Source: an uncultured Kordiimonas sp.
GTDB taxonomy: Bacteria; Pseudomonadota; Alphaproteobacteria; Sphingomonadales; Kordiimonadaceae
Assembly: GCA_947492375.1 (NCBI GenBank)
Contig: CANLMI010000001.1
Coordinates: 868,001-932,000 of the forward strand
DNA: 64,000 nucleotides
Direction of reading: 5' to 3'
The notes beneath the pieces are model-generated. The model searched no databases. It was not told the DNA's origin and was given only the letters and a program-made list of their open reading frames with translations. Shown piece after piece: positions 56,079 to 64,000 of the stretch (position 1 is the stretch's first letter; every line of letters begins with the position of its first letter). The position numbers and the translations under genes are program-made.

Positions 56079-57491
56079 ATGCCCACTGACATGCCCCAGG
56101 TAGTAACACGGTTTGCACCGTCACCAACGGGATTTCTTCATATTGGCGGTGCGAGAACCGCACTTTATAACTGGCTTTTCGCTAAACACCATGGCGGTAA
56201 ATTTGTTCTCAGAATTGAAGACACGGATCGTAAAAGATCAACTGAAGAGGCAATTACCGCAATAATGAACGGTATGGAATGGCTTGGGTTAAACTGGGAT
56301 GGTGAAGCCATTAGCCAGTTTTCTCAAGCTGAGCGTCACCGCGAGGTAGCAAACGCGCTCCTCGAGAGTGGAAACGCCTATTATTGTTATGCCAGTCAAG
56401 AAGAAACAGCTCAAGCGCGCGATAAAGCGCGCAGCGAAGGCAAGCGCTTCAGGGGGGATTTATGGCGAGACCGTAACCCGAACGAAGCGCCAGAAGGCGT
56501 TGAACCTGTAATCCGGGTTAAGATGCCACGCGAAGGCGAAATAACAATTGCCGATGCCGTTCAAGGTGATGTAACGGTTGCAAACGCAGAACTTGATGAC
56601 ATGGTGATTTTGCGTTCTGACGGAACACCAACATATATGCTCTCTGTTGTTGTGGATGATCATGATATGGGGATTACTCATATCATTCGCGGTGATGACC
56701 ATCTAAACAATGCGTTCAAGCAGCACCAGATATATTCTATGATGAATTGGGATATACCTGTATTTGCACACATTCCCCTTATTCATGGGCCAGATGGCAA
56801 AAAACTCTCAAAGCGCCACGGGGCGCTGGGTGTTGACGCTTACGCTGATATGGGCTTTTTACCTGAAGCCATGCGGAATTATTTACTGCGCCTTGGCTGG
56901 AGCCACGGTGATGACGAAATCATCACAACAGAACAGGCAACCGAATGGTTTACGCTTGAAAATGTTGGTCGTGCCCCTGCCCGTTTTGATTTTGATAAGC
57001 TTGATTTCGTCAATGCGCATTATATTAAATCTACATCCAATGAACGCCTTTTCGATACCATTGAAAATGATCTATCCAGCAACATCCAACGATCAATTGA
57101 TGACGTAGAAAAAGCGCGCATTATCAAGGCAATGACTTCGATAAAAGAACGTGCAAAACGCTTGGATGATTTAATTGAACCATCTTCCGTGTTTTGTAAT
57201 ATTCGCCCATTAGAAATCAACGAGAAAGCCGCCAAGCAAATAAATGAGGAGACGGTACCTGTTCTCGTATCCTTAAAAAGTCAACTCGAAAATATTTCCG
57301 AATGGGAAGGTACTATAATAAAATCTACAATCATGTCCTTTGCTGATGCAGAGGGCCTAAAACTAGGCAAGGTTATGCAGCCCATCAGGGCTGTGGTCAC
57401 AGGAGGAAAACAATCCGGTGACCTTGTAGAAACACTAGAAATTCTTGGTCAGAAAGAGACAATAAGTCGCCTTTCAGATCAAATACAATAG
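56079..57491 (+). CDS. gltX: Glutamate--tRNA ligase
   Basis: A 470-residue class I aminoacyl-tRNA synthetase. The HIGH motif is HIGG (21-24) in [16 protein letters not shown], and the KMSKS motif is KLSKR near residues 242-246. [11 protein letters not shown] is a family signature, and the C-terminal anticodon domain is complete. Alphaproteobacteria often have two gltX genes, one charging glutamine tRNA; which type this is cannot be told here. A second ATG at 56091 is possible. gltA follows 64 bases later. Confidence 0.97.
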
Positions 57492-57555: not shown

Positions 57556-58842
57556 ATGTCAAATGACCCCCTAAAGCTTTCAGGCAATGGCCTTGACATT
57601 GATCTACCTATAATGGAAGGCTCTGTTGGCCCTAAAGTTATCGATGTTCGGAAACTTTATGCGCAATCAGATATGTTCACGTTTGACCCCGGCTTCACAT
57701 CAACTGCTAGCTGTGAATCCAGCATTACCTTTATTGACGGTGACAAAGGTCAGCTCTTATACCGTGGTTATCCTATTGAACAACTAGCCGAAAAAAGCGA
57801 CTTCATGGAATGTTGCTATCTTCTTCTCTTTGGTGATCTACCAAGCAAAGCTGAAAAAGACAAATTCGTTCATGATATCACGCACCATACAATGCTTCAT
57901 GAGCAATTGCATCGCTTCTTCAGTGGTTTCCGCCGCGATGCACACCCAATGGCGATTATGGTTGGTGTCGTAGGTGCTCTCGCTGCATTCTATCATGACA
58001 GCACAGATATTAGTGATCCACATCAGCGTATGGTTGCCAGCTATCGCATGATTGCGAAAATCCCGACAATTGCCGCTATGGCTTACAAATATTCTATCGG
58101 CCAACCATTTGTATATCCGCAAAATGATCTTTCATATGCTGGTAACTTCTTGAATATGATGTTCTCTGTGCCAGCGGCACCGTATGAAGTAAGCCCTACG
58201 CTTGAGCGTGCAATGGACTTGATCTTCATCCTTCACGCAGATCATGAGCAAAACGCATCAACGTCCACGGTTCGCCTTGCTGGCTCATCTGGTGCAAATC
58301 CATTTGCTTGTATCGCCGCAGGTATCGCATGTTTATGGGGCCCGGCACACGGCGGCGCAAACGAAGCATGCTTAAATATGCTTGAGGAAATTGGTACTGT
58401 TGACCGTATCCCTGAATTTGTTGCTCGTGCCAAAGATAAAAGCGACCCATTCCGCCTAATGGGCTTTGGTCACCGCGTTTATAAAAACTTTGATCCGCGT
58501 GCAACTGTTATGCGTGATACTGCTCACAAGGTACTTGCCGAACTCGGTGTTGATGATCCATTATTTGATGTGGCAATGGAGCTTGAAAAAATTGCCCTTG
58601 AAGATGAGTATTTCATTGCCAAGAAACTATATCCTAACGTTGATTTCTATTCTGGCATTATCCTTAAGGCTATGGGTTTCCCAACAGAAATGTTTACAGT
58701 GCTCTTTGCGCTTGCCCGCACAAGTGGCTGGATCGCACAGTGGAAAGAAATGGTCGAAGATCCAACACAAAAAATTGGCCGCCCTCGCCAGTTATACACT
58801 GGTGCAGCAGCTCGCGATTACACTCCGGTAGACGAACGGTAG
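57556..58842 (+). CDS. gltA: Citrate synthase
   Basis: A 428-residue type II citrate synthase, the entry enzyme of the TCA cycle. Conserved parts are [22 protein letters not shown], the active-site His in [11 protein letters not shown] and in [14 protein letters not shown], and the catalytic Asp in [17 protein letters not shown] ribosome site precedes the ATG. In most alphaproteobacteria lpxB/lpxI/lpxA come next on the opposite strand; here an RTX gene does. Confidence 0.98.
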
Positions 58843-58865
58843 TCTAAAGAAATAATATCAAATAA

Positions 58866-58899
58866 GAAAAAGCCCGGTCATCATTGACCGGGCTTTTTC
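58866..58899. terminator. Strong bidirectional terminator between gltA and the RTX gene
   Basis: GAAAAAGCCCGGTCA (58866-58880) and TGACCGGGCTTTTTC (58885-58899) form a perfect 15-bp stem with a 4-base loop, with T runs on both strands. It ends gltA transcription, and the RTX transcript from the other side. Confidence 0.95.
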
Positions 58900-58900
58900 A

Positions 58901-59545
58901 TTAAAAACCTAAGCTTTCAACTGAAATATTAGCAACGCCCGAAATGGAATCCAATAAGCCGTTTACAAAATCATCTGTAGTAAACAAACTAAACCCAGGA
59001 AATGATGTAAAATGGTCAATTTCAATACTATTTCCACTTCCATCACTGATGGTAATATCAAAAATAGCATTCTCAGGCCCAGAAGCACCAGAAATGACAC
59101 CAGTATCAAATTCAATACTTAAATTACTAACATTTTCAAATACTAAAAGATCATTTCCTAAAGCATTAAATTGGAAATCAGATATATTATCGTCCCCAAA
59201 ATTACCGGCGAAGAAAAACACATCATCCCCACTTCCACCAGATAGGTCATCATTTCCACTACCCCCGGTAAGTGTATCATTTCCAGTTCCACCAACAAGG
59301 TCATCATTACCAGAACCACCAAATATATTATCGTTGCCAGCACCACCAGTTACATCGTCGTCACCAGCTGCACCGAAAACAACATCGTTACCCGTGCCGC
59401 CTTCAAGAGTATCTCGGCCAGCAGCCCCACCAATGGTGTCATTGCCTGCACCGCCGTTTACAAAATCATTACCACCTCGCGCAAATATCTCATCTGCTTC
59501 GGTTGTTCCCATAATAATGTCATCATCATCTGTTGCATTAAACAT
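58901..59545 (-). CDS. Small RTX calcium-binding protein, probable type I secretion substrate
   Basis: A 214-residue acidic protein. Residues 21-110 hold about ten RTX nonapeptides of the form GGxGNDxLx (for example GGAGNDTI, GGTGNDVV, GGSGNDDL), which fold as a calcium-loaded beta roll. Residues 110-214 are a hydrophobic/acidic C-terminal region of the sort that carries type I secretion signals. There is no N-terminal signal peptide, which fits type I secretion. No enzymatic domain is visible. No exporter genes are in the window. It occupies the place where lpxA/lpxI/lpxB normally lie. Frames on the opposite strand are mirror products of the repeats. Confidence 0.85.
   Translation of the reverse strand: MFNATDDDDIIMGTTEADEIFARGGNDFVNGGAGNDTIGGAAGRDTLEGGTGNDVVFGAAGDDDVTGGAGNDNIFGGSGNDDLVGGTGNDTLTGGSGNDDLSGGSGDDVFFFAGNFGDDNISDFQFNALGNDLLVFENVSNLSIEFDTGVISGASGPENAIFDITISDGSGNSIEIDHFTSFPGFSLFTTDDFVNGLLDSISGVANISVESLGF
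59216..59485 (-). repeat. 27-bp coding repeats of the RTX domain
   Basis: About ten 27-base units encoding the GGxGxDxxx nonapeptides lie in tandem within the RTX gene. They are diverged from each other but hold the Gly-Gly and Asn/Asp-Asp codons. Such arrays can gain or lose units by slippage. Confidence 0.8.
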
Positions 59546-59670
59546 AATATATTCCCAATCATGCTAGTATGTTAAAACAAGGCGTCATCGCCATATTTAA
59601 TAATACAATTAAAAATGGTTATTTTATGCTAATGAATAACAATAAAGCTTTAAAAGAGCATGTTTTCAAC

Positions 59671-59696
59671 AAAAAAGGCAGCAAATGCCGCCTTTT
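59671..59696 (-). terminator. Rho-independent terminator after fabZ
   Basis: On the minus strand AAAAGGCGGC pairs with GCTGCCTTTT around the loop ATTT, with one G-U pair, followed by TTTTTT. It lies 35 bases past the fabZ stop codon and ends the rseP-bamA-skp-fabZ transcript. Confidence 0.85.
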
Positions 59697-59730
59697 ACAA
59701 TCTATAGATTATTGCTATACTTTGGATACT

Positions 59731-60174
59731 TTAATTCTCTTTTGCCCCCAGCATTGCGGTTAATTTTGCCTGACAAACCACGGTTCCTTCAACAGATGCC
59801 TCTGCATCAAATTTCCACACAGCCCCCCCGCCGCGCGTCTTCGTTAATTTCATTTCCAATCGATCACCAGGCTCCACAGGTTTTCGAAATTTGGCACCAT
59901 CAATACCCATGAAATAAACCACGCGACCTTGCGCATCTTCACCAAGGAAATCAACCGCGATAACAGCCGCCGTTTGTGCCATCGCTTCTAAAATTAAAAC
60001 CCCTGGCATAACTGGCTTTTGCGGAAAATGCCCCGGGAAAAATGGTTCATTAATTGTGACGTTTTTAATGCCAGTAGCACTTTCACCAGATACTACGTCG
60101 ATAACTTTATCAATCAACAAAAAAGGATAACGATGCGGGATCATTTCCATAATCTGATTAATATCAAATTCCAT
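59731..60174 (-). CDS. fabZ: 3-hydroxyacyl-ACP dehydratase FabZ
   Basis: A 147-residue hot-dog-fold enzyme of fatty acid synthesis. The catalytic pair is His49 (FFPGHFPQKPVMPG) and Glu63 (LILEAMAQ). I chose the ATG at 60174 because GGAGG lies seven bases before it. In nearly all alphaproteobacteria fabZ lies between lpxD and lpxA; here skp is upstream and an RTX gene downstream, so its lipid A partners are gone while the fatty-acid gene remains. Confidence 0.96.
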   Translation of the reverse strand: MEFDINQIMEMIPHRYPFLLIDKVIDVVSGESATGIKNVTINEPFFPGHFPQKPVMPGVLILEAMAQTAAVIAVDFLGEDAQGRVVYFMGIDGAKFRKPVEPGDRLEMKLTKTRGGGAVWKFDAEASVEGTVVCQAKLTAMLGAKEN

Positions 60175-60208
60175 CTTCAGCCTCCAAATATCTACAGCGT
60201 TCAACAAA

Positions 60209-60243
60209 AGAGCCTCCAGGTAATCATATCACCTGAAGGCTCT
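60209..60243 (-). terminator. Hairpin between skp and fabZ
   Basis: On the minus strand AGAGCCTTCAGGT pairs with ACCTGGAGGCTCT (7 and 5 bp around one mismatched pair) across a 9-base loop, followed by TTTTG. It lies 20 bases past the skp stop and could be a partial terminator or an RNA-processing site. It sits exactly where lpxD would be expected. Confidence 0.7.
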
Positions 60244-60262
60244 AATAATCTATCTTTTAAAC

Positions 60263-60856
60263 TTAATTGCCGTCAGTCGGTGTCGCAGCAGCTGGTTGTG
60301 CCGCCGACCGCTGCGGTAATGTAAGCGTCACAGCAGGCAATTCAGCATCCAATTGTTCAATAAACTCAGTTGTAACATCGATACCTGATGCTGAACCCAT
60401 TACGAGCCGTTTGATCATAATAATTTGTGCATTCCGATCAGCCAAAATCTTACGAATTACAGGCTGCCTTGCACGCTCCACCTGAGTTGCTGCTTCTTGG
60501 CGTAACTTATCAAATTGAAGTTCTGAAATCTGAAGGGCACGTTGAGCATTAACAAATTGCGTCTCCAACCCTTTTCGCTCTTCTTCGTATTTATCGTTAC
60601 CGATAATCGACTTGCGTTGTTCCAAATCAGCCATAAGCTGCTCGACCTGGCCACCACGAGAGACGAACTGGCGCAACTGAACAATATTCTGACGCAGTTC
60701 ATTCACTTGCAGATTAAAGTCTTTATAAGCAGCTGCTTCGCGCTCGACGCGCTCATCATCGACAATAAGGATTTGTGCTTCAAGAGCTGTCCCCAAACCC
60801 AGAAATGCGATCAAAGCTGCCGCAGTAATTTTTATCATTTTAAGCACAGAGGCCAT
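60263..60856 (-). CDS. skp: Periplasmic chaperone Skp/OmpH family protein
   Basis: A 197-residue exported chaperone for outer-membrane proteins. A signal peptide covers about 1-27 (ending ALEAQ). The rest is a long helical, coiled-coil arm region (about 40-130, rich in Arg, Glu and Gln) with the family beta core on both sides. It delivers unfolded proteins to BamA, whose gene ends 23 bases upstream. AAGGAAC precedes the ATG at 60856. Confidence 0.9.
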   Translation of the reverse strand: MASVLKMIKITAAALIAFLGLGTALEAQILIVDDERVEREAAAYKDFNLQVNELRQNIVQLRQFVSRGGQVEQLMADLEQRKSIIGNDKYEEERKGLETQFVNAQRALQISELQFDKLRQEAATQVERARQPVIRKILADRNAQIIMIKRLVMGSASGIDVTTEFIEQLDAELPAVTLTLPQRSAAQPAAATPTDGN

Positions 60857-60879
60857 AGCTAGTTCCTTAATAGTATCAT

Positions 60880-63540
60880 TTAGAATGTGGTACCCACATT
60901 AAATTGAAGTGTCTGAGTATCATCTCCGAGTTGACGACGCAATGTTCTTGCAAGGTCAATTCGGAATGGGCCAAACGGTGACTGCCACGAAAACCCAATA
61001 CCAATAGAGATACGAGGGCTTGGCGAGTCACCAGCCAAGCACGTTGTACCAGAAAACCCGAGTTCATTCGCTGCATCAGCGAGGGTTAGGTCACCGGCAG
61101 AGACTGAAGTCTGGAAAGCTGTAAAAGTTTGCCTGTCAAATGGGCAATCAGGAAAGATAGAGTTTTCGGCACGGAATAATGATCCGACATCAAAGAAAGC
61201 CGAAGCGTTAATACCCGATTCCAGTGCAGCATCACCAAGAGGGAAGAAAAGTTCTGCACGGCCAATATAAAAAGCACGCCCACCTAATGCACCGAATGCC
61301 TGCTCAGGATTTTGGGTTTGAGCTATAATATTAAACTGCCTTGGGCCTACACCCGCATTATCAAAGCCACGTAATCTTGGCCCGCCAAGGAAGAACAGAT
61401 CATTTAAGCGTACAGCCTGATTAATGCCTTCAATAAGACCACCTTCAGCGCCTAACCTCAGTGTCCAACCGTTATATGGCGTCCAGTAATTATCAACACT
61501 TGCAGTTGTTTGAAGGTACTTAACACTACCGCCAAGGCCCGCAAAATTCTGATTAAACCGAATAGAGCGCCCACGAGTTGGCCGAATAATACTGTTTCGA
61601 CTATCAGTACCTAAAGTATATCCAATAATAGACTGTGTTCTTTGACCAATCGAATTACCGAAAAACGGGTTAAACTCGGTTAAAATATCCTCGGCCTGCG
61701 TATCTGAAAGGTCGTTAACATCTTCAATGCCAAAAAAGTCTTCGATAGTAATTACACCATCACCATTAGTATCAGCATCAGCAAGTAAATCGGGATTGGT
61801 TTGGCTAACGGCGATAACGCTATTGATTGTATTTTCAGCATTGCTAAGAAGAACAAAACGACCAAACGAAGCATTATCAGTTCTTAGTGTATAACGAAGC
61901 CCTAAAGACCAAAATTCATTTAACGCTGCTCCAGCCCTTAATTGAAAACCTAAAGCACGATTTTGTAGACCATTTTGTGTAATACCATTACCCAAGTTGG
62001 TGGTGTCAGTATTTGTTGCAAAAATATTAAAACCGCCAGAAACACTACGGCCAAATAAATATGGCTCGGTAAAGTCCAAATTAACACTTTGTTGAAAGCT
62101 TGATAACTGAGTGGAAAGTCCAAGAGACTGCCCTCGCCCTAGAAGGTTTCTTTGACGTATTGAAGCGTTAAAAATAAAGTTTTGTACGCTTGAAAAGCCT
62201 GCACCAAGGTTTAATTCACCAGTTGCCTGTTCTTCAATACCAACATCTAAAACAAGCCGATCAGGTGTAGAGCCCGGTAATTGCTCAATTTCGATTTCGC
62301 GGAAAAAACTAAGCCGGCGTAGACGGTTTTCGGATCGGTTCACAAGCGCTGAATTGAAGGCATCCCCTTCTTGCAGGCGGAGTTCACGGCGAACAACTTT
62401 ATCGAGCGTTGTAACATTACCATGAATACGAATGCGTTCTACATAAACGCGCGGTGCATCCAATACTCTGAATGTAATACCAATCGATCTATCTTCACGG
62501 TTACGATCAATCCGCGGCCGGATATCAACAAAAGCATACCCCAGCAAACCTGCCGCATTTGTTAAAGCCTCAATAGTTTGTTCAATTGCTTCGGCATTAT
62601 ATGTCTGCCCTTTGCGCATCAAGAGAAAAGCTTCAAACAGAATTGGGTCTACATCACGAATTTCACTATCGACAGAAATATCACCAAATTGATATACTTC
62701 CCCTTCTTCGACCGTAAAGGTAACAAAAAAGTCTTCGCGGTCCGGTGTTAATTCGGAAATGGCTGATACAACACGAAAATCTGCATATCCTTCATTCAGA
62801 TAAAACTGTCGTAGAACCTGTTGATCATATGCCTGACGATCAGGATCAAAAGTATCATTCGAGCCAAAAATTTTCCACCAACGTGACTCTTTGGTCGCGA
62901 GTACATCTTTCAGGTCGCCGTCGCTATATTGCTGGTTTCCAATGAAATTGATCTTACTGATCCGAGTTTTCGGGCCTTCTTGAATCTCGAACAAAACATC
63001 AACACGGTTCTGTTCTAGTTGAACCACTTTTGGTTCAATAATAGCTGCAAACCGGCCAGAATTTCTATAGAGCGCCAAAATTCGCTCCACATCAGCCCGA
63101 ACCTTCGCGCGTGTAAATATTGTCCGTGGGCGTAAACGCACTTCTTCCAGAAGTTCCTCACGGTCCAATCGCTTATTACCTTCAAAAACTACGCGGTTAA
63201 TGATTGGGTTTTCGACAACCTTAATAATAAGCGTGCCTTGTTGCTCGAGTATTTCAACATCCGCAAACAACCCCGTTGCAAAAAGATTTTTTGTGCTTTC
63301 ATTAATTTTAGCGAAATCAAATGGATCACCAGACCTAATAGTGAGGTAAGAAGCAACCGTTTCCGGCTCCACACGCTCACTGCCAATTACAGAAATTTGC
63401 CGGATTGTTGGTAACGCTTGCTCTTGTCCACCAGCAGGTTGCTGTGCAGAAACTAGACTGGTGTTCAAAGCCCCGAAAACGATTGAAGTACAAGCAACAA
63501 CAACCAGATAGAAATAATTTAACCGCAAAACTTTGCTCAC
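60880..63540 (-). CDS. bamA: Outer membrane protein assembly factor BamA
   Basis: An 886-residue outer-membrane insertase. A signal peptide (about 1-32) is followed by five POTRA domains (about 45-435) and a 16-strand barrel ending in Phe (LQFNVGTTF), as required for recognition. The loop-6 motif RGF is at 724-726. Unusual features are an EF-hand-like acidic loop DTNGDGVITIED (590-601) in a barrel loop of about 60 residues, and two cysteines (C799, C834) that may form a disulfide outside the membrane. The length is above the usual 760-800. It sits between rseP and skp in the normal order. Confidence 0.97.
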   Translation of the reverse strand: MSKVLRLNYFYLVVVACTSIVFGALNTSLVSAQQPAGGQEQALPTIRQISVIGSERVEPETVASYLTIRSGDPFDFAKINESTKNLFATGLFADVEILEQQGTLIIKVVENPIINRVVFEGNKRLDREELLEEVRLRPRTIFTRAKVRADVERILALYRNSGRFAAIIEPKVVQLEQNRVDVLFEIQEGPKTRISKINFIGNQQYSDGDLKDVLATKESRWWKIFGSNDTFDPDRQAYDQQVLRQFYLNEGYADFRVVSAISELTPDREDFFVTFTVEEGEVYQFGDISVDSEIRDVDPILFEAFLLMRKGQTYNAEAIEQTIEALTNAAGLLGYAFVDIRPRIDRNREDRSIGITFRVLDAPRVYVERIRIHGNVTTLDKVVRRELRLQEGDAFNSALVNRSENRLRRLSFFREIEIEQLPGSTPDRLVLDVGIEEQATGELNLGAGFSSVQNFIFNASIRQRNLLGRGQSLGLSTQLSSFQQSVNLDFTEPYLFGRSVSGGFNIFATNTDTTNLGNGITQNGLQNRALGFQLRAGAALNEFWSLGLRYTLRTDNASFGRFVLLSNAENTINSVIAVSQTNPDLLADADTNGDGVITIEDFFGIEDVNDLSDTQAEDILTEFNPFFGNSIGQRTQSIIGYTLGTDSRNSIIRPTRGRSIRFNQNFAGLGGSVKYLQTTASVDNYWTPYNGWTLRLGAEGGLIEGINQAVRLNDLFFLGGPRLRGFDNAGVGPRQFNIIAQTQNPEQAFGALGGRAFYIGRAELFFPLGDAALESGINASAFFDVGSLFRAENSIFPDCPFDRQTFTAFQTSVSAGDLTLADAANELGFSGTTCLAGDSPSPRISIGIGFSWQSPFGPFRIDLARTLRRQLGDDTQTLQFNVGTTF

Positions 63541-63617: not shown

Positions 63618-64000
63618 CTATAGCACGATAGATTGCAAGTCATTCAGTGTTACAAACACCATAAAAATCAACATTAACGCCATTCCGGCGATATATCCCA
63701 CTTCCTGCGCCCGTTTTTGAAGCGGTGAACCCTTAATTGCTTCAACTAAATAAAACATCAGATGCCCACCGTCCAACACTGGAATCGGCAATAAATTTAC
63801 AATCCCCAGATTTATAGAAATCAATGCCAAGAATATAATAAAGTTCTGAAGTCCACGGCTCGCGGCTTCACCTGTCATTGTTGCGATTCGTACTGGTCCT
63901 CCCAGCTCTTTTACAGAGCGCAGGCCAACAATAATCTGGCCTGTTGTCGTAAAGATAGTACTTATAAGAGTACCAGTTTGACGTGCTCCTTCAGACAACG
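63618..64000 (-). CDS. rseP: Site-2 protease RseP, C-terminal part (cut by window end)
   Basis: The last 127 or so residues of an intramembrane zinc metalloprotease. Visible parts are the end of a PDZ domain, GQIIVGLRSVKELGGPVRIA, the third zinc ligand motif NLLPIPVLDGGHLMFYLVEAIKG and a final membrane helix. The HExxH site lies in the missing N-terminal part. RseP cuts anti-sigma factors and leftover signal peptides. It is 77 bases upstream of bamA in the conserved order. Confidence 0.95.
   Translation of the reverse strand, partial: LSEGARQTGTLISTIFTTTGQIIVGLRSVKELGGPVRIATMTGEAASRGLQNFIIFLALISINLGIVNLLPIPVLDGGHLMFYLVEAIKGSPLQKRAQEVGYIAGMALMLIFMVFVTLNDLQSIVL

Follow-up and report, generated by a model that had tools for sequence, protein, structure and literature searches.

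The window analysed here, a 64,000-nucleotide stretch of an uncultured Kordiimonas sp. (assembly GCA_947492375.1, contig CANLMI010000001.1, positions 868,001 to 932,000), has the gene order gltA-RTX-fabZ-skp-bamA-rseP, from which the lipid A synthesis genes lpxD, lpxA, lpxI and lpxB are all missing. We think it probable that this lineage lost lipid A together with LptF1-LptG1, the permease pair for lipopolysaccharide (LPS), and that ceramide lipids are exported in its place by a second pair, LptF2-LptG2, over the retained LptB, LptC, LptA and LptD. The genome has no LpxB or LpxC and no LpxD above cut-off, its lptD operon is free of lptFG, the LptFG pair it does have is linked to sphingolipid genes and belongs to one of two distinct clades, and lptA, lptB, lptC and lptD are all retained.

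Lipid A synthesis genes in the genome and its order

The genome from which the window comes is rated 100% complete and comprises 3.94 Mb on 23 contigs. Whole-genome profile searches gave no match for LpxB and no match for LpxC, and nothing over cut-off for LpxD, for which the best match reached 29.4 bits against a cut-off of 242.5. LpxA was assessed indirectly through the LpxD model, which also picks up LpxA. This model matched the true LpxA in seven of seven outgroups, whose genes exceed the TIGR01852 cut-off, and in the window's genome it gave three matches, all of them in a 459-residue GlmU or a 175-residue gamma-carbonic-anhydrase-like protein.

The same absence extends through the order. 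LpxB was found in none of 118 sampled genomes from 47 genera, one-contig genomes included, and 95 of the 118 reach a completeness of 90% or more with contamination of 5% or less. The order grouping used here, which unites Kordiimonadaceae with the sphingomonads, we take to be that of GTDB; NCBI taxonomy places Kordiimonas gwangyangensis in Kordiimonadales. LpxC exceeded its cut-off in 19 of 43 genomes, all 19 of which are neither Kordiimonadaceae nor sphingomonads, and in none of the remaining 24, which are the window's genome, nine others of its family or genus, K. gwangyangensis and 13 named sphingomonads. Similarly, of 28 genomes only the seven outgroups had LpxD above cut-off. Three matches below cut-off were left uncounted: an LpxC match in a 607-residue frame of K. 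gwangyangensis (20.8 bits, cut-off 27) and LpxD-model matches in the genomes G130 (97.1 bits) and G011 (71.0 bits).

The first-pass annotation, made from the window alone, had proposed loss of these genes rather than their relocation, and had suggested searching the genome for LpxB, LpxC, LpxD and LpxA and for serine palmitoyltransferase (SPT) and ceramide genes. Relocation, to another part of the genome or to unassembled sequence, would suit a gene order that does vary, since sphingomonad gltA loci have no fabZ in the examined stretch, and an assembly broken into 23 contigs. It is nevertheless extremely improbable when a complete genome yields no match over cut-off to the LpxB, LpxC or LpxD model and every sampled genome of the order, including those in one contig, is missing LpxB; for LpxB and LpxC these searches already refute it in this assembly. 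Because LpxB is missing in 118 of 118 genomes, the results support an old loss of the lipid A synthesis genes (LpxB, LpxC, LpxD and, by the indirect test, LpxA) in this lineage, in line with what had been proposed.

A sphingolipid cluster with the only LptFG pair

An outer membrane without LPS and of the sphingolipid type, as in Sphingomonas, had also been predicted from the window, and this prediction is supported by the absence of the lpx genes together with the SPT gene that we find inside a sphingolipid cluster. The cluster forms one block in the window's genome at C1:390000-409900 (L108) and contains a fatty acyl-AMP ligase (NF006624, 812 bits), an epimerase-like reductase, a frame resembling acyl carrier protein (ACP), SPT, a DAGK-type (diacylglycerol kinase) lipid kinase, a GNAT-type acyltransferase and a fatty acid hydroxylase. 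The block further includes lptF-lptG and a flippase-like protein recognised by a weak match. The SPT scored 605.5 bits with NF047599, over the cut-off of 500, and 607.2 bits with NF047603, under the cut-off of 670, and its best PDB matches are the serine palmitoyltransferases 2x8u and 2jg2. The reductase and acyltransferase are assigned at general family level only; by analogy with the make-up of the Caulobacter cluster given in the accessible text of PMC11324152 and PMC10331486, the neighbours of SPT are candidates for ceramide reductase, ceramide synthase and ceramide kinase.

The LptFG pair in this block, the only one of the genome, begins ~4 kb from SPT, and both proteins exceed their cut-offs (LptF, TIGR04407, 239.4 bits against 230; LptG, TIGR04408, 278.7 bits against 240). 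All 11 Kordiimonadaceae compared, and five of ten sphingomonads, have LptFG and SPT within one 20-kb stretch, and SPT is present in 42 of the 44 genomes of the order that were searched.

The remainder of the Lpt machine is also encoded, so that the window's genome has LptA, LptB, LptC, LptD, LptF and LptG. LptD was matched in all 28 genomes examined, and a single LptD is retained in the examined genomes of the order; that of the window's genome exceeds the Pfam cut-off and falls below the NCBIfam cut-offs. The genes lptC, lptA and lptB lie side by side: LptC (27.8 bits, NCBIfam cut-off 38) and LptA (64.4 bits, cut-off 71.7) are both under these thresholds, LptC exceeds its Pfam cut-off, and the adjoining LptB scores 375 bits. 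Across genomes, the LptC model matched 22 of 29.

It is the lptD operon, situated outside the window, that has changed. All 17 Kordiimonadaceae and sphingomonad genomes examined have a locus that reads pepA-lptD-surA-pdxA-ksgA without lptF or lptG, with the pepA and lptD matches 158-524 bases apart (210 bases in the window's genome). In four outgroups with the order pepA-lptFG-lptD, 2446-2660 bases separate pepA from lptD. Type-1 lptF, described below, stands beside pepA and/or lptD-surA in all eight outgroups, and lptG does so in seven of them; lptD itself is located elsewhere in Niveispirillum and Robiginitomaculum, and lptG elsewhere in Caenispirillum. The adjacency of pepA and lptD had raised the idea that LptFG was lost altogether, which proved wrong, as the pair is found elsewhere in the genome.

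If lipid A is gone, the outer membrane might be a phospholipid bilayer with no specialised outer-leaflet lipid, and the Lpt proteins might be relics. The absence of lipid A genes is what such a membrane would predict, yet the LptD matches (28 of 28 genomes) and LptFG matches (29 of 29) are free of internal stops, apart from one stop in a copy of G002, which is unlike relics, and the near-constant presence of SPT in the order also speaks against it. We consider this explanation very improbable.

Two types of LptF and LptG

We built a tree of 94 LptF and LptG proteins by a quick method with SH-aLRT supports; the Caulobacter proteins themselves are outside it. The lptD-operon type, type 1, forms the clades F1 (8 rows, support 100) and G1 (8 rows, support 99), with one G1 row, from Caenispirillum, encoded outside the lptD operon, and the second type, type 2, forms the clades F2 (40 rows, support 98) and G2 (38 rows, support 93). 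Both LptFG copies of the window's genome are of type 2, as is every copy in 31 genomes of its group, 27 of them placed in the tree and four typed by best match. These 31 comprise 20 genomes by assigned taxonomy (own, same genus, family, order) and, by name, K. gwangyangensis and ten sphingomonads. Both types are found in three genomes that have LpxC and SPT, Niveispirillum G136, G171 and G172, and type 1 alone, with all copies typed, is found in G121, G137, G139, G141, G144, G145, G198 and G222. We therefore rejected the idea that the lptD-operon pair had simply moved into the sphingolipid cluster: the remaining pair belongs to a separate clade, and G136, G171 and G172 hold both.

Extra type-2 LptF or LptG copies were seen at L115 (G055), L116 (K. 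gwangyangensis), L117 (G038), L186 (G003) and L189 (G013), several of them LptF-type genes without an adjoining LptG-type partner.

The two types also differ at individual positions. At the position of E. coli LptG K40, all eight type-1 proteins have R, and the 38 type-2 proteins have D (19), G (12), A (2), E (2), S (2) or K (1). At the K41 position R is found in six of eight type-1 proteins, and type 2 has D in 20, E in 6 and other residues in 12. Of the 38 type-2 LptG proteins, 31 thus carry D or G at K40 and 26 carry D or E at K41. LptF R178 is present in all eight type-1 proteins and mostly lost in type 2. As read from these alignments, the difference between the types is a change of charge pattern, not a plain loss of charge.

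Lipid-A-less lineages outside the order

In a sample of the class, LpxC was found in 340 of 387 genomes, and 41 of the 47 negatives lie outside the order. SPT, called here at E values up to 1e-90, is present in 27 of these 41 compared to 4 of 75 LpxC-positive genomes (75 examined of the 340), a difference with a Fisher p of 3e-12 and, counted by family (10/23 vs 4/75), of 5e-5, both with kinship ignored. LpxB is missing in 9 of the 14 LpxC-negative genomes tested outside the order. The other five (G166, G197, G198, G201 and G222) bear LpxB and were not counted as lipid-A-less; among them G197 has type-2 LptFG and SPT, and its LpxB match is weak (105 bits).

Six of the nine genomes that lack both LpxC and LpxB have SPT. 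Five of these, G179, G181, G211, G215 and G228, have exactly one LptFG pair each, and it is of type 2; the pair lies with SPT in four of them and on a different contig in G215. No LptFG was found in G156, G169 and G227, genomes of 1.2-1.7 Mb that lack LpxC, LpxB and SPT alike. Families f72 and f85 include other genera with LpxC, so that, provided the assigned taxonomy holds, the losses in G215 and G228 seem to be separate.

The gltA-bamA locus

The features of the locus within the window are as follows.

56079-57491, plus strand: gltX, an open reading frame (ORF).
57556-58842, plus strand: gltA, citrate synthase (NCBIfam NF004126, 776.8 bits, above cut-off).
58843-59730, no strand: expected place of lpxA-lpxI-lpxB, holding a terminator-like inverted repeat and the RTX gene only.
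58901-59545, minus strand: small RTX protein of 214 amino acids (HemolysinCabind match).
59731-60207, minus strand: fabZ, 3-hydroxyacyl-ACP dehydratase (TIGR01750, 191.9 bits, above cut-off).
60208-60262, minus strand: place of lpxD in other Alphaproteobacteria, holding a terminator-like hairpin alone.
60263-60856, minus strand: skp/ompH-like periplasmic chaperone (PF03938 (OmpH), 23.8 bits, below the 32.4 cut-off; weak).
60880-63540, minus strand: bamA (TIGR03303, 700 bits, above cut-off).
63618-64000, minus strand: rseP, cut by the window end and complete in L095 (named by eye).

The gene order and strands from gltA to rseP given in the first-pass annotation are borne out by the ORFs, with GltA, FabZ and BamA above their NCBIfam cut-offs, and past the window end the frames, read by eye, continue as dxr-cdsA-uppS-frr-pyrH-tsf-rpsB. 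In many other Alphaproteobacteria gltA borders the place held by lpxA-lpxI-lpxB. Here fabZ has been retained though its lpx neighbours are gone; translation may actually begin a few codons into the called frame. The place of lpxD indeed holds only a hairpin, as had been noted: the 55-base gap between skp and fabZ has a 16-bp stem with a run of T after it on the coding strand (fold z = -5.83). This reads as an ordinary intrinsic terminator, and we rejected it as a special element.

We compared the neighbourhood of gltA with 80 gltA loci from other genomes, in which lpxA alone of lpxA, lpxI and lpxB was placed. In 38 of the 80, lpxD, fabZ and lpxA all lie near gltA. A single locus, L073, has fabZ and lpxA, fabZ without lpxA is found at two (K. 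gwangyangensis, L001, and the metagenome-assembled genome (MAG) locus L011), and at the remaining 39 the examined stretch contains no fabZ. K. gwangyangensis, the closest named locus, with a gltA 90% identical to that of the window, has the lpx-free order gltA-fabZ-skp-bamA with ~180 bases between gltA and fabZ and no RTX match between them. The small RTX gene does stand at the lpxA-lpxI-lpxB place in the window, as was pointed out earlier, but it is no standing replacement for these genes: as K. gwangyangensis has no RTX match at that place, the gene is a local addition, and we rejected it as a functional substitute. The locus L011 (Alphaproteobacteria bacterium Dive100_bin10.85) also reads gltA-fabZ-skp-bamA with lpxA and lpxD absent there, and in its genome, G151, there is no LpxB and a type-2 LptFG pair adjoins SPT.

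Taken with the lptD operon, the locus shows that two operons are missing their lipid-A-related genes and nothing else.

Discussion

Our preferred explanation is that the lineage lost lipid A synthesis and, with it, would have lost the LPS-dedicated inner-membrane permease LptF1-LptG1. The enzymes of the cluster would make ceramide-based lipids in lipid A's place, a flippase would turn these to the outer face, LptB2-F2G2 would extract them from the inner membrane, and the LptC-LptA bridge and outer-membrane LptD would carry them to the surface. LptF2G2 would thus be a sphingolipid carrier that docks on LptB, LptC, LptA and LptD, and the outer leaflet would be of sphingolipid. More generally, we lean towards the view that LptF/LptG is an exchangeable, substrate-choosing module of the Lpt machine, such that Alphaproteobacteria making both LPS and sphingolipid may run two pairs, each for its own lipid, on common LptA, LptB and LptD, and loss of lipid A would drop exactly the LPS pair and leave the sphingolipid pair in use, as would have happened several times, in this order as a whole and at least in genera of f72 and f85.

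Several observations weigh against this explanation. The most direct comes from G205 (family f62), a 5.4-Mb genome in one contig and 100% complete, which lacks LpxC and LpxB and has SPT, and in which no LptF or LptG was found at all. Since G205 has SPT and no LptFG, LptF2G2 is not the sole way to live without lipid A, and its lineage may be LPS-free with another export route. In the sphingomonads, SPT is outside the examined stretch around LptFG in five of ten genomes, and in the order it was not found in two of the 44 genomes searched, G014 (800 contigs) and G040 (340 contigs). Because the LptC model detects only 22 of 29 genomes, a second LptC could be missed. Long branches lead to several rows of the tree (G197, G215, G171 and G144), and G172, one of the genomes with both types, has LpxC but no LpxB match, perhaps through an assembly gap. 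The residues are not uniform either: the LptG K34 position is mostly D in both types, type 2 and not type 1 keeps the E. coli basic residue at LptG K278, LptG R308, LptF R223 and LptF K30, at the last of these as R or K in 38 of 40 type-2 proteins. Furthermore, that K40 and K41 of E. coli LptG contact LPS is our assumption. The accessible part of PMC11458178 has no occurrence of these two residues.

The G205 stretch concerned is C1:1499500-1519400 (L173), and four family mates of this genome, G304, G383, G449 and G509, are likewise LpxC-negative with SPT present.

Lipid A might also have been lost while LptF2G2 and LptD export another glycolipid or a hopanoid, with sphingolipids travelling elsewhere and the linkage to SPT a matter of history. 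G205, which manages without an LptFG pair, would fit this. It has to account, however, for the presence of type-2 LptFG beside SPT in lineages both inside and outside the order, and for Caulobacter, where in the accessible text of PMC11324152 mutants of CC_1156 (LptF2) and CC_1168 (LptC2) are co-fit (0.60 and 0.78) with mutants of the phosphosphingolipid gene CC_1159. We regard such a different cargo as unlikely, and prefer sphingolipid export by LptF2-LptG2.

The Sphingomonas outer membrane has no LPS and has glycosphingolipid instead, as cited in the portions available of PMC11087976 and PMC11324152. The named sphingomonads in our sample resemble the window's genome, with 13 lacking LpxC and 10 lacking LpxD over cut-off, and the 10 examined have type-2 LptFG and an lptD operon free of lptFG. 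The window's genome differs in that it most likely belongs to Kordiimonadaceae, judged by the likeness of its gltA locus to that of K. gwangyangensis, and in having its sphingolipid genes in one block, whereas those of S. wittichii and Z. mobilis are scattered, as far as the text of PMC11324152 could be consulted. In Caulobacter crescentus, the phosphosphingolipid cluster CC_1168-CC_1152 includes LptC2, LptF2 and LptG2, for which Olea-Ozuna et al. 2024 suggested sphingolipid export; in the accessible text transport was not investigated (PMC11324152). Compared by family and not directly, the clusters are alike in grouping aasR, cerR, acpR, spt, cerS, a potential flippase and a second LptF/LptG. 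Caulobacter also keeps LPS, and its genes are called second versions in the accessible sections of PMC11324152; in contrast, the type-2 pair is here the only LptFG of the genome. Wolbachia, Ehrlichia and Anaplasma are Alphaproteobacteria without lipid A genes that live as obligate intracellular bacteria (Opiyo et al. 2010, PMC3087551, accessible part), whereas here a 3.9-Mb genome with SPT keeps the Lpt machine, and a free-living life is likely from its relatives.

As an LPS loss of the Sphingomonas type, our finding stands as an extension of a known type. What is new is the loss of the other LptFG pair along with lipid A, across the sampled order and in lineages outside it; in the open-licence literature, by titles and abstract openings, we found no statement of LptFG loss from the lptD operon or of LPS loss in Kordiimonadaceae. 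The route of sphingolipids to the outer membrane is called unknown in the accessible text of two 2024 papers. These genomes amount to a natural deletion experiment: several lineages have parted with lipid A and the LPS permease together and kept the permease of the sphingolipid cluster. They point to a specific, testable route for sphingolipid export and to a few residues that may govern the choice of substrate. They would also extend the absence of LPS beyond the sphingomonads to an entire order, a matter relevant to endotoxin tests, to the response to polymyxin and to the dispensability of LPS.

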